This document shows, one piece after another, positions 34,476 to 64,000 of a DNA stretch of 64,000 nucleotides. Origin of the DNA: Spirochaetae bacterium HGW-Spirochaetae-1. Lineage in GTDB: Bacteria > Spirochaetota > UBA4802 > UBA5550. A program made the translations under genes and the position numbers. Each line of letters begins with the position of its first letter. Positions within the stretch are counted from its first letter, which is position 1. The notes under the pieces are model-generated. The model saw only the letters and a program-made list of their open reading frames with translations, did no database searches and was not told the origin of the DNA. The DNA lies in NCBI GenBank assembly GCA_002839375.1, contig PGXY01000004.1, positions 441,864 through 505,863 of the forward strand, read 5' to 3'.

Positions 34476-34502
34476 TACAGATAAACATACAAAAATAAAA
34501 AA

Positions 34503-34533
34503 AGAGACTGGTTTTAAACCGGTCTCTTTTTTT
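34503..34533 (+). terminator. Intrinsic terminator
   Basis: AGAGACTGGTT (34503-34513) pairs with AACCGGTCTCT (34517-34527) with one G-U, then T-run. Confidence 0.85.
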
Positions 34534-34856
34534 ATCAGTCTCTGGCAGCTGTTTCAGGGAACTGTACAGATGCTAAAAGGCAACACCAGCAGCAAAATTA
34601 CCCACTATAATTCCAGAATACCTCTAGTTCGCATTCTAATTAATTTTTGATGTAGAGGCAGCGTCAAAGGGGTCCTATGCATCCTGTTTAAAGTAGCCGC
34701 TGTAACCGAGTTGTACGTAGACATCAAGATAGACGAAGGACCATTGCCTTATGCGCTGGCTGATGGTGCAGCAGTTGATTATATATTTAAAAGTATTGCT
34801 GTGACCGTAATAATGGGTATAAGATGACTTTAATTAAATGATGGGGGAAGTTTACC
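34534..34856 (+). other. Intergenic region with an unstarted coding-like frame
   Basis: A plus-strand frame about 34656-34827 is protein-like (FKVAAVTELYVDIKIDEGP and ADGAAVDYIFKSIAV) and ends at TGA 34825-34827 but has no ATG. It may be the tail of a gene whose start was lost. Nothing else is seen. Confidence 0.3.
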
Positions 34857-55456: not shown

Positions 55457-55638
55457 GTATCACCCTGTAAGTATTTTCTGTATCCGGATATAAGGGAACC
55501 TTTAAAAATTAAATTTTGGAAGTTCCCTTGTGGGTACAAGCATTGGAAAAATCAGGTTTTATCATTCTTGTAATAATGAGAAAACCTGATTTTTAGAAGT
55601 ACCCATAATATTATAATGCAAAAATAAAAAAACAATAA

Positions 55639-60276: not shown

Positions 60277-60717
60277 CTATTCATCAATTACTTCCCAATC
60301 CCCTTCACCGAACCGTACGGCAAGTTCATGACGCCGCCCCATCTCAAAAAAATGGAATATGACCCGCGGATGCTCTTCCTTAAGGAACCGGCTGGATTCT
60401 GAATCGGTGAGGATTTCGAAGGCCCACCATACGGCCTGCTCAGCCAGATCGGGATTGATTTTCCCTGTCCAGCCATAGGGCTGCTCGTCTTCCGTGAGGG
60501 GAACGGTGCCCTTTTCCGTGGCAGGGACATATATTTCCACGGGATTGCTTGATGAGAAAAAGACTCCGCCGGAACGGGCGTACAGGGAGGCAAGGTTCAG
60601 GCTTATCTGCCATTTGTTGAGAAAGGCGCCCTTCTTACTGAAACCGAAAGGGGATTCAATCAGGGGATTGTCACCGGCCCGGTTGACTTTTTCTTTTATA
60701 TAATCGTTCAGGGTCAT
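60277..60717 (-). CDS. Protein of unknown function
   Basis: 146 aa. No signal peptide or membrane segment. Contains PFGFSKKGAFLNKWQISLNLASLYARSGGVFFSSSNPVEIYVPATEKG and ends in a HELAVRFGEGDWEVIDE strand. Composition is normal for a real gene. Family not recognised. It lies between the DUF4389 gene (30 nt upstream) and the PNPOx-like gene (59 nt downstream) on one strand, so it is probably part of that operon. Confidence 0.55.
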   Translation of the reverse strand: MTLNDYIKEKVNRAGDNPLIESPFGFSKKGAFLNKWQISLNLASLYARSGGVFFSSSNPVEIYVPATEKGTVPLTEDEQPYGWTGKINPDLAEQAVWWAFEILTDSESSRFLKEEHPRVIFHFFEMGRRHELAVRFGEGDWEVIDE

Positions 60718-60747
60718 GGTCTTTTTTACTGACCACGGAGTGTCACA

Positions 60748-61080
60748 TCAGTCTTCATCGACAGATGTTGGAAGCGATGTATCATAATCCAGCTCCAACT
60801 CGGGAGCGGGCCAGTCTGAAAAAGGAAACGGGCGGTCATCGGTGGCGTAACCGAGGAATAGAAGCACCTGGTACATGTATTGTGAAAGCTGGGCGCTGAA
60901 GACCCGCGCCTGTCTGTTGGGTTCTCCCGTGAATAGATTTAAAAGCATCTGAAATATCAGAATGATGGCGAAGATATTTATCGCAGCTCCCATGAAGATG
61001 ATAAATAAAAACATGTAGAAGAGCCGCAGCCAGGTGCCGGTATTTTTCAGGTGCTGTTTGATTTCACTGTTGTCTATCAT
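60748..61080 (-). CDS. DUF4389 membrane protein
   Basis: 110 aa from the ATG at 61080, chosen for the AGGAGG immediately upstream; an ATG at 61110 is less likely. One long hydrophobic region (LFYMFLFIIFMGAAINIFAIILIFQMLLNLFTGEPN) forms one or two membrane helices, followed by an acidic C-terminus. The pattern with LFTGEPN fits DUF4389. Role unknown. Confidence 0.7.
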   Translation of the reverse strand: MIDNSEIKQHLKNTGTWLRLFYMFLFIIFMGAAINIFAIILIFQMLLNLFTGEPNRQARVFSAQLSQYMYQVLLFLGYATDDRPFPFSDWPAPELELDYDTSLPTSVDED

Positions 61081-61136
61081 GGATATTCCTCCTGTAATAA
61101 TGTTGCCCATTTAAGGTGTTATTTGCAGACTTTGAG

Positions 61137-61658
61137 TCATTCCTCCCGTATCAGGTCCATGGCGTAGCGCCGGGAATTTTTGACATAGTGACGGGCCGAA
61201 TCCCGTATGGTCTCAATGTCATCTTCCGTTATCTGCCGCACCACCCTGCCGGGAGATCCCATGACTACGGAGCCGTCGGGGATGTGCTTGTTCTCGGTGA
61301 TGAGGGTATTGGCGCCGATTAAGCAGTTTTTTCCTATGACGGCGCCGTTGAGGATTACGGCGTTGATGCCGATAAGGCATTCATCGCCGATGATGCAGCC
61401 GTGCAGCATGACCTTGTGTCCCACCGTTACGTCTCTGCCGATCGCGAGAGAATAGGTGTCGTCAACATGAAGAACGCAGCTGTCCTGTATGTTGCTGTTT
61501 TCACCGATGGTGATGGTGTTGGAGTCTCCGCGTACAACGGCGTTAAACCATATGCTGGCATTGTTTTCAAGTATTACGGAGCCGATGACCACGGCATTAT
61601 CGGCGATAAAATGTTCACCCTTTGTCGTGGGGCCTCGGCCGTTCAATGTATACTTCAT
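61137..61658 (-). CDS. Gamma-carbonic anhydrase-like hexapeptide-repeat protein
   Basis: 173 aa. A left-handed beta-helix with [LIV]-G-x-x-x-x hexapeptide turns. The zinc-ligand histidines of the gamma-carbonic anhydrase class are present: H64 (VLHVD), H81 and H86 (VGHKVMLHG). A C-terminal helix closes the trimer. It may hydrate CO2 or be a YrdA/PaaY-like thioesterase-linked protein; the sequence cannot decide. It heads a four-gene operon. Confidence 0.88.
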   Translation of the reverse strand: MKYTLNGRGPTTKGEHFIADNAVVIGSVILENNASIWFNAVVRGDSNTITIGENSNIQDSCVLHVDDTYSLAIGRDVTVGHKVMLHGCIIGDECLIGINAVILNGAVIGKNCLIGANTLITENKHIPDGSVVMGSPGRVVRQITEDDIETIRDSARHYVKNSRRYAMDLIREE

Positions 61659-61875
61659 GATTATTTCCCTGCAGATTTAATAGCATGAGCATATCCTCCA
61701 TACAAGCTGCCGTCAATCACTAATCACGGCATGGGGATTATTTGTTAGATTGCCGCATGATGATTGGGCACTGTTTGGCCGCAGAGTGATTTTTACTTGA
61801 CAGAGGGCAAAAATTATTGATCGCTCTTGTATAATATCGGTTTGGATATACTGAAAGGCTTCAGGGGAATGATAC

Positions 61876-62475
61876 ATGGCGAAAACATCAAAGGATAAAC
61901 CCCAGAAAGAACTCATAATGGACAGGTCCCGCGTTCTTTTCTGGGAAAAGGGATACATGGAAACCAGCATGAGGGACATCGCCCAGGCCTGCGGGTTCAG
62001 ACCCGCCAATATCTATAATTTTTTCACCAACAAAGAACAGATACTCTTTGAAATCCTAATAGATGAGATGAACCAGATCATTGAACCGATACGGCACCTG
62101 GAGCATGAAGATGACGGCGACCCGGTCCGGCAGCTGCGCCTTGTCATCGAAAATCATACACGGCTGACCCTGGGACACCGGCGGTCGTCGAAACTCCTAT
62201 TCGATATGGAACTGGGCAGCCTGTCTCCGGCCAATAAAAAAAAGATTATCAGGCTTCGCGATGATTATGACAGGATAGCCAGCACAATCATCAGGCGCGG
62301 CATGGAGCGGAAGATTTTTAACACGGCCGATGACCGCATGGCCGTGTACTGCATTGCCTCCATGATTGTCCGTACGCGTATGTGGTATTCGCCCGATGGA
62401 AGACTGAGCATCGATGAGATCATCGACTTTATCTTCAATTTTGCCCTGAAAGGACTCAACTTTAAGGGAAGGTGA
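61876..62475 (+). CDS. TetR-family regulator of a lipid-type operon
   Basis: 199 aa. Helix-turn-helix TSMRDIAQACGFRPANIYNFF (about 30-50) and a C-terminal helical ligand domain typical of the KstR/FadR-like TetR group. TATAAT (61830-61835) may be its -10 box. It lies 105 nt upstream of a START-domain gene whose leader carries the palindrome AACCGTC-TG-GACGGTT. It probably regulates that gene and the esterase downstream, sensing a lipid or acyl-CoA (inference). Confidence 0.85.
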   Translation: MAKTSKDKPQKELIMDRSRVLFWEKGYMETSMRDIAQACGFRPANIYNFFTNKEQILFEILIDEMNQIIEPIRHLEHEDDGDPVRQLRLVIENHTRLTLGHRRSSKLLFDMELGSLSPANKKKIIRLRDDYDRIASTIIRRGMERKIFNTADDRMAVYCIASMIVRTRMWYSPDGRLSIDEIIDFIFNFALKGLNFKGR

Positions 62476-62522
62476 TTCCTGTAAAATTTCCGACACAAAG
62501 TTAAAAATGTTCTTGATTTGTT

Positions 62523-62578
62523 AATACCCCCTGTTTATTTATAACCGTCTGGACGGTTTTAAATAAACAGGGGGTATT
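62523..62578 (+). promoter_or_regulatory. 27-bp inverted repeat over the START-gene ribosome-binding site
   Basis: Left arm 62523-62549 and right arm 62552-62578 pair at 26 of 27 positions with a 2-nt centre, ending 2 nt before the ATG at 62581. The core AACCGTC-TG-GACGGTT (62543-62558) is a TetR-type operator. The right arm contains AGGGGG (62569-62574), the ribosome-binding site, paired with CCCCCT in the left arm. As RNA, the start site would be closed in a long hairpin. Confidence 0.8.
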
Positions 62579-62580
62579 CA

Positions 62581-63243
62581 ATGAAAAAGGTTTCATTATT
62601 CTTTCTCGTAATGATTTTTGCCGTGGGGATTTTGCCTACAACAGCTCAGGAAACCTGGAAACTGAGTAAGGATTCAAAGGGAGTAAAGGTTTTCACCCGT
62701 GATGTGACAGGTTCACCCTACAAGGAAATGCGGGCGGTTATGAACAGCAAAACTCCCTTTGAGGTGGCTGTGGAGGTCATGAAGGATCCAGAGCACTACT
62801 ATGAATGGTATGGTATGTGCGGAGGGCTCTCCGTGATAAACAAAAAGACCGACAGCAATTTTGATATGTATTTTATCCTTGATCTTCCCGTTGTGACCGA
62901 CAGGGACGTGGTCATAAATGTGGTTCAGCACGTGGATTTCGCCAAAGGGGTTGCCAAGGTTGATATTAACAGGATTGAGAGTACCTATAAAAAGGATTCC
63001 GGGCTGGTGCATATGGCCAAGATGAACGGAACTTTCACTATCACAAGGCAGAGCAATGGGGAGATCGTCATCGTGTATCAGCTTTTTGCCGATGTGGGCG
63101 GTTCTCTTCCAGCCTGGGTAGTCAATATTGCTTCAACGGATCATCCCTTCAAGACCATGACGGGTGTACGGAAACAGTCAAAGCAGGATAAGTACTGGGC
63201 AAGCGCCAAAGCCCTGCACAAAAAAGACTTTGTCCGGCAGTGA
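62581..63243 (+). CDS. Exported START-domain protein
   Basis: 220 aa. Signal peptide (MKKVSLFFLVMIFAVGILPTTAQ). The mature part is a START/polyketide-cyclase-like lipid-binding domain: GVKVFTRDVTGSPYKEMRAV, YYEWYGMCGGLSVI, DLPVVTDRDVVINV and the closing helix WVVNIASTDHPFKTMTGVR. Such domains bind sterols or lipids in a cavity, here in the periplasm. Translation may be controlled by the hairpin over its ribosome-binding site. An esterase gene follows 168 nt later. Confidence 0.8.
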   Translation: MKKVSLFFLVMIFAVGILPTTAQETWKLSKDSKGVKVFTRDVTGSPYKEMRAVMNSKTPFEVAVEVMKDPEHYYEWYGMCGGLSVINKKTDSNFDMYFILDLPVVTDRDVVINVVQHVDFAKGVAKVDINRIESTYKKDSGLVHMAKMNGTFTITRQSNGEIVIVYQLFADVGGSLPAWVVNIASTDHPFKTMTGVRKQSKQDKYWASAKALHKKDFVRQ

Positions 63244-63411
63244 AGAACAGCCAGACAGGTAATGTAAGGTGCCCGGTTAAATTCTGATTATCGAATGAAT
63301 GGCTGATCATTAATATTTTTTTAATGTTTCCATTTAAAAGGAAAATGTTGTTGATACTAAAAGCTGTCCAGAGCAGATGTTTATTATTCAAGATGGATGG
63401 AGACAGGGGAT

Positions 63412-64000
63412 ATGGCTTCCAGGGAGTTTTACCGTATCAGGGACAGCATTAAAAAAATTATACAGCGATTTGACTATTCGGGAAATCAGGATGATATAAA
63501 CCGCCTCAGGTTTTTCATGAACATGGGGATACAGCCCTTTTCGGACAGGGCATCATTGAGTGAAGTGACGGCCGGGACGGTCCCGGCTGCATGGATCTAT
63601 GATTGTGATGCAGAACCGAAAAACAGGATACTGTTCCTTCATGGGGGCGGATATGTGGCGGGCGGCATTATATCGCACCGCAACCTGGCGGCATGGATTT
63701 CCAGGGCCGCCGGTTGTGCCGTGCTGCTTATCGATTACCGGCTGGCGCCGGAGAATCCTTTCCCGGCAGCCCTGGATGATGCTCTCACGGCATACCGGTG
63801 GATGCAGCTGAACGGACCGATGGGTGAAGAGAGTGCCCGTAATACATTCATAGCCGGCGATTCGGCCGGCGGCGGTCTTACCCTGGCCACGCTTCTTGCA
63901 CTGAAGCAGGGAGGGGAACCCCTTCCCCGGGCTGCCGTGACTCTTTCGGCCTTTGCGGACCTGTCCATGGGAGGTGAGACAATTCACAGCCTGGCGGAGC
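63412..64000 (+). CDS. HSL-family alpha/beta hydrolase, cut by the window end
   Basis: 196 codons seen, running off the window. AGGGG precedes the ATG at 63412. Hormone-sensitive-lipase motif HGGGYVAGG (oxyanion hole, about 77-85) and nucleophile elbow GDSAGGG (about 149-155) are present, as is DYRLAPENPFPAALDDA. Catalytic Asp and His lie beyond the window. It probably hydrolyses short acyl esters. It lies downstream of the TetR/START pair and may be under the same control. Confidence 0.88.
   Translation, partial: MASREFYRIRDSIKKIIQRFDYSGNQDDINRLRFFMNMGIQPFSDRASLSEVTAGTVPAAWIYDCDAEPKNRILFLHGGGYVAGGIISHRNLAAWISRAAGCAVLLIDYRLAPENPFPAALDDALTAYRWMQLNGPMGEESARNTFIAGDSAGGGLTLATLLALKQGGEPLPRAAVTLSAFADLSMGGETIHSLAE

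Follow-up and report, generated by a model that had tools for sequence, protein, structure and literature searches.

A long palindrome in front of a spirochaetal START-domain gene: a possible promoter-operator that hides the Shine-Dalgarno sequence of read-through transcripts

In the fold-back inhibition of IS10, which acts at the end of this mobile element, read-through RNA of the transposase gene folds over the ribosome-binding site. In phage T4, the Shine-Dalgarno (SD) sequences of genes e, soc, 49 and I-TevI are sequestered in long transcripts (PMC3014915). Gene e carries a late promoter in the 5′ strand, and its long early transcripts are described as locked, while the late ones are translated (PMC3014915). 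On the side of the DNA, the QacR operator IR1 covers positions −6 to +21 of qacA and overlaps the start point; the operator is 28 bp long and held by a pair of dimers, and the palindromes of QacR and CgmR measure 28–32 bp (PMC9210681).

Here we analysed a palindrome of Spirochaetae bacterium HGW-Spirochaetae-1 that lies within a stretch of 64,000 nucleotides (the window, to which positions without a locus name refer). The palindrome occupies positions 62523–62578 of the plus strand and precedes a gene for a START-domain protein of 220 aa (62581–63243, plus strand; PF01852, E 7e-6, above the curated cut-off), the N-terminus of which resembles a signal peptide by eye. Upstream, a TetR-family regulator with profile matches to TetR_N and TetR_C_24 is encoded on the same strand (61876–62475). 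The earlier note had described an inverted repeat of 27+2+27 nt with one mismatch that ends 2 nt before the ATG, and this was confirmed: the arms (62523–62549 and 62552–62578) are paired at 26 of 27 positions around the spacer TG, T62542/T62559 is the sole mismatch and the right arm stops 2 nt short of the ATG at 62581. The ribosome-binding site was also placed correctly, since the SD sequence AGGGGG (62569–62574, plus strand) lies inside the right arm, opposite CCCCCT (62527–62532) in the left one. The outer left arm (62523–62542, plus strand) is thus the reverse-complement partner of the SD leader.

Beyond a central core of 16 bp, 19 of 20 pairs match, where 6.1 are expected (P about 7e-10), and the best of 200,000 shuffles reached 15. 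The palindrome is therefore not due to chance. The RNA of 62490–62620 is predicted to fold at −44.3 kcal/mol, where shuffles average −21.9 (z −7.2), and none of 200 shuffles equalled it. A genome search found a single copy of the full palindrome, which rules out repeated or mobile copies. Rfam returned no match at the gathering score for 60500–64000, only two sub-threshold matches, and a known RNA family was thereby dismissed. An intrinsic terminator was discarded as well, because T makes up only one of the nine following bases on either strand and the element is absent from the terminator scan. The usual substrate of RNase III is a long uninterrupted RNA helix, and the strong fold of 62490–62620 would offer one, so that cleavage of the stem in a tetR-START read-through RNA might separate or destroy the START message. 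This would leave the operator core and the position of the SD unexplained, and we consider it extremely unlikely.

To place the element in its genome, we surveyed palindromes in 1.264 Mb of the 5.2-Mb genome, made up of the window and 60 stretches of 20 kb. In this sample 19 palindromes scored at least 17, among which that of the START leader shares fourth place. Stems covering the SD with a score of at least 9 were found in three of 986 SD-preceded leaders (window included), where shuffles predict none; these are the START leader, a leader at L235:12747 and a terminator-like one. The control genome G003 (0.4 Mb) gave no such stem in 305 leaders, and G051 (0.4 Mb) gave six in 345, with a best score of 12 and none of at least 15. 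Further long palindromes with 20-nt arms lie in the window at 34495–34535 and 55547–55594, away from any SD. L230:6175 and L234:4144 are perfect palindromes that have GTACGG-CAGGTCGCGACCTG-CCGTAC in common and differ by an A-T to G-C exchange that is matched between the two arms. In addition, an intergenic palindromic repeat family, GGGGCGGGTTTNAAACCCGCCCC, occurs at nine places in the genome with up to three mismatches (control 0), among them G000 C5:139117, L264:19099 and L276:8170.

The centre of the START palindrome is formed by the operator-like core AACCGTCTGGACGGTT (62543–62558, without strand), which recurs across the order. Of 46 genomes of the order, 12 contain exact WACCGTCYRGACGGTW, with 21 sites in total, compared to one site in one genome for the reversed control, and the part of the earlier note that took the core for an operator-like palindrome is thus well founded. 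In the source genome, ACCGTCNNGACGGT with at most one mismatch occurs at 34 places versus 14 for the control. Many core sites lie in AT-rich intergenes 5′ of genes for exported proteins, and some of the one-mismatch places are intragenic. As a dyad of about 14–16 bp that recurs at promoters, the core has the form of a TetR-family operator. From the pattern of its sites, the core behaves as a real operator, and protein binding to it is predicted.

The genes preceded by the core encode secreted hydrolases, surface proteins, an acyl-CoA-reductase-like enzyme and a second START protein. A Pfam search with 13 proteins encoded downstream of core sites gave S15 twice, an OmpL1-type porin and an acyl-CoA-reductase-like NAD_binding_4 domain once each, alpha/beta hydrolases twice (one of the Palm_thioest/lipase type, one below the cut-off), Cadherin-like domains twice and Big_5 once; four had no match. 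Three core-downstream proteins have the look of FadL-type outer-membrane proteins, by eye only. Nine of the ten START matches in the source genome were examined, the window included and C5:189437 left out; one paralogue carries a core with a single mismatch 46 nt upstream of its start, and the core of the window START gene lies 38 nt before its start. The downstream gene types and the core at the START paralogue make it probable that the START gene is part of a regulon for lipid and envelope functions; if so, the element also points to such a lipid and cell-envelope regulon in an uncultured order of spirochaetes. On the reverse strand of L151 (1363–1417), another palindrome, with 25-nt arms and TTTACAAAGTNACTTTGTAAA, separates a START paralogue from a divergent operon whose regulator looks winged-helix-like by eye; it is the single such site in the genome.

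The adjacent TetR protein was the regulator proposed by the earlier note. Its best NCBIfam score is with Bacillus FadR, below the cut-off. At E 1e-14 or better, another 19 genomes of the order have a relative, although that of G024 is only 26% identical, and named genomes contribute 45 loci. Among these we considered the 33 closest (L178–L210, at least 47% identity), which come mainly from MAGs labelled Spirochaetes or Deltaproteobacteria/Desulfobacterota. Upstream of the TetR relatives a different dyad, TTAATGGTCRTTCATTAA, is conserved: allowing two mismatches, it was found at 22 of these 33 loci, and the reversed pattern at none. The core was found at one of the 33, about 3 kb away, and all 33 lack a START gene. 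By eye, relatives of the adjacent TetR adjoin enoyl-CoA hydratase- and thiolase-like genes. In MAGs of Spirochaetota and Desulfobacterota (the 33 loci and L146:1876), TTAATGGTCRTTCATTAA is the conserved operator of a FadR-like TetR and lies 5′ of the genes for TetR and enoyl-CoA hydratase.

The source genome has one TTAATGGTCGTTCATTAA site, 34 nt before genes for an enoyl-CoA hydratase and an acyl-CoA dehydrogenase, and TTAATGGTCRTTCATTAA with up to four mismatches has no match in 61650–62700, which spans the regulator's own gene and the palindrome. Moreover, of the 12 genomes with the core, G002, G005 and G022 lack a TetR of the adjacent type. Since the operator of the relatives differs, occurs elsewhere in the source genome and the regulator is missing from these three genomes, the adjacent TetR is, judging from these comparisons, probably not the reader of the core, and we no longer assign it the transcriptional switch. 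It likely regulates the enoyl-CoA hydratase and acyl-CoA dehydrogenase genes elsewhere. The START leader, if read correctly, cautions against the assumption that a palindrome is read by the TetR encoded next to it. Another TetR family is present in all 12 core-bearing genomes and in 30 of 46 overall, and adjoins a core site in three of 25 loci, counts that ignore kinship; this family is a better candidate reader than the adjacent TetR, as a lead and not as proof. The candidate TetR proteins of the source genome are encoded at G000 C7:502847 and C8:97398.

For the transcript start, both here and at L235:12747, we scored promoters with E. coli base frequencies, which is a weak point of these scores. 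The top match in 62476–62600 was TTGTTA-16-TATAAC, with a candidate −35 at 62518–62523 and, after a 16-nt spacer, a candidate −10 at 62540–62545 (both plus strand). Its score of 4.9 lies below the mean of the best shuffled matches (6.7), and the match is therefore weak evidence. The candidate −10 lies inside the left arm and includes the mismatched base 62542; the outer left arm (62523–62542) thus harbours the candidate spacer and the initial bases of the −10. From the position of this −10, transcription is predicted to start at 62551–62553 (plus strand), in the centre of the palindrome. Of the oriented core sites (20 with that of the window), 10 place the top-scoring −10 at 4–17 nt upstream of the core; this raw count, with no null, would typically put the core at the start point. 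A start at the palindrome centre would give the START gene an mRNA without the left arm and the hairpin.

Next to this stands the RNA fold. In read-through RNA with both arms, opening the SD costs a computed 21.9 kcal/mol at a pairing of 1.00, compared to 4.6–5.0 kcal/mol in RNA from starts at 62546–62555. In the predicted short START mRNA, the SD and the start codon are partly paired with the coding region (mean about 0.84 and 0.98). The terminator scan found no terminator-like site between tetR and the START gene (62475–62581), and transcription of tetR could continue into START. The idea of translational control by folding therefore survives in part: RNA with both arms buries the SD, while the gene's own mRNA would, by the weak promoter match, lack the left arm. 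A translation switch in that own mRNA, as first proposed, is not favoured, as the best, albeit weak, promoter match starts inside the repeat, an outcome that the earlier note had itself named as a refutation. The same match speaks against the full dual switch of the earlier note, in which the adjacent TetR would bind the core and the palindrome in the own mRNA would open and close the SD. This scheme draws on the adjacency of the regulator, the TetR-type dyad and the strong fold. However, the operator of this TetR family differs and is found in the source genome, and the 17 aligned TetR sequences all share the recognition-helix residues P43–N48 (PANIYN). We judge the dual switch very unlikely.

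The second start-abutting palindrome of the survey, L235:12747–12790, has 22-nt arms and the core TGACATGTCA; it abuts the start codon and carries an SD at its right edge. Its candidate promoter, TTGACA-17-GATGAT, has a consensus −35 and a score of 9.8, which 1.1% of shuffles equalled, and would put the start near the palindrome centre. The downstream gene encodes a lipoprotein-like protein of 784 aa and lies 3′ of a phosphofructokinase-like gene (by eye). Opening of its SD takes about 9.8–9.9 kcal/mol whether the left arm is present or not. This palindrome supports the DNA geometry, not the RNA lock.

To see whether long arms belong to the core, we compared the START leader with 21 other exact core sites. 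Allowing one mismatch, the arms reach 28 at the START leader and 8–18 (median 9) at the others, which rules out long arms as a general trait of the core. Pairing past the core at the 21 sites gave p 0.02 for offsets 8–10, p 0.21 for 11–16 and p 0.26 for 17–28. These numbers bear on a reading in which several repressor dimers, or a dimer and a second factor, occupy the whole 56 bp as a long DNA operator and the RNA is irrelevant. QacR and CgmR, with pairs of dimers on 28–32-bp palindromes, are a precedent (PMC9210681), the length and predicted position of our palindrome fit the QacR type, and two of the other core sites have a perfect reach of 16 and 17. Yet pairing past the core is only weakly above chance at the 21 sites, the outer arms are not common to them, and by eye these arms hold the SD and no repeated half-site. 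A long operator of this kind thus appears distinctly unlikely.

The right-arm sequence AACAGGGGGTAT also leads another gene of the source genome, at L008, where the left arm is missing. The right arm thus resembles a plain SD leader, and the left arm is the odd, added part. This is what would be expected under the main rival explanation, in which a replication template switch nucleated at the core copied the right arm leftward, leaving a functional core and an incidental RNA hairpin. Template switches have been reported to make perfect hairpins in a single event (PMC8794818). Furthermore, the 1.264-Mb sample contains 12 palindromes with a score of at least 17 and loops of 0–2, most of them away from start codons, so that long palindromes of this genome need not serve translation. 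Against such a by-product stands the lone mismatch: a perfect palindrome would give TAAAAC where the candidate −10 has TATAAC, which suggests selection on that strand. In addition, two palindromes abut start codons among 986 leaders where shuffles predict none, although shuffles do not model template switching. We regard a by-product as not very likely, yet as the explanation to be weighed most seriously against ours.

Relatives of the leader were also sought. A protein search of named genomes gave no close relatives of the START protein, and a search for the leader DNA across 46 genomes gave short pieces only; the source genome was the sole representative of its genus. Among 29 loci with START homologues, the 28 leaders checked (L016 has no usable frame) contain neither a core with at most one mismatch nor an SD-covering palindrome; the core of L018 has two mismatches. 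In the genomes of family f7 (L011–L015), the START homologue lies directly 3′ of a thiolase-like gene, and in four of these a relative of the window TetR is found about 9–10 kb off on the same contig.

Taken as a whole, we tentatively prefer to read the element as the promoter-operator of the START gene, with dyad, transcript start and SD in one palindrome that blocks translation of read-through RNA; we put its chance somewhat short of even. The core would be bound by a regulator with target genes across the order, probably a TetR-family repressor encoded elsewhere. On the core, this repressor would sit over both the −10 and the start point, halting transcription. When the site is free, transcription would start at about 62551–62553 and yield an mRNA with the right arm only, in which the SD is computed to be reachable. 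Transcripts entering from tetR would carry both arms, fold into the computed hairpin and presumably stay untranslated. With read-through RNA locked and the own mRNA open, the palindrome would leave the controlled promoter as the sole route to expression, like the leader of T4 gene e. In a further reading, selection lengthened a repressor site around the transcript start so that any RNA begun elsewhere folds over the SD; one dyad would then serve two locks in a bacterial chromosome and make the gene repressible and silent to read-through, which in our estimate is rather unlikely. If the promoter-operator reading is true, the leader is a compact means for a gene to answer solely to its own controlled promoter.

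How does this compare with the described systems? Our limited literature search gave no described case of the same layout, or of START/TetR in Spirochaetes. The wider statement of the earlier note that no such case is described is too broad, since T4 e, soc, 49 and I-TevI lock the SD (PMC3014915) and the QacR operator overlaps the start point (PMC9210681). Like QacR IR1, the START element is a long TetR-type palindrome overlapping a (predicted) transcript start (PMC9210681). However, the account of IR1 in PMC9210681 describes no arm that buries an SD, and of the START element the 16-bp core alone recurs elsewhere. The adjacent regulator is like the FadR-type TetR regulators of fatty-acid metabolism in that it carries TetR_C_24 and has relatives beside enoyl-CoA hydratase- and thiolase-like genes (by eye), but the operator of these relatives is TTAATGGTCRTTCATTAA, from which the core of the START leader differs. 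As in IS10, RNA from outside would fold over the ribosome-binding site; unlike here, IS10 does so at a mobile-element end without an operator. The closest likeness is to T4 gene e, where the SD also lies in a helix of upstream-initiated RNA, the promoter (predicted in our case) in the 5′ arm, and where short transcripts, as predicted for START, lack the 5′ arm (PMC3014915). Unlike gene e, the START leader is chromosomal, has an operator at the centre of a stem of 26 pairs and a weak predicted promoter, and is known from computation only. The START element is thus a variation on the known layout of T4 gene e, centred here on an operator, with its function predicted; if true, a bacterial chromosome would hold its own equivalent of the gene e leader, merged with an operator.
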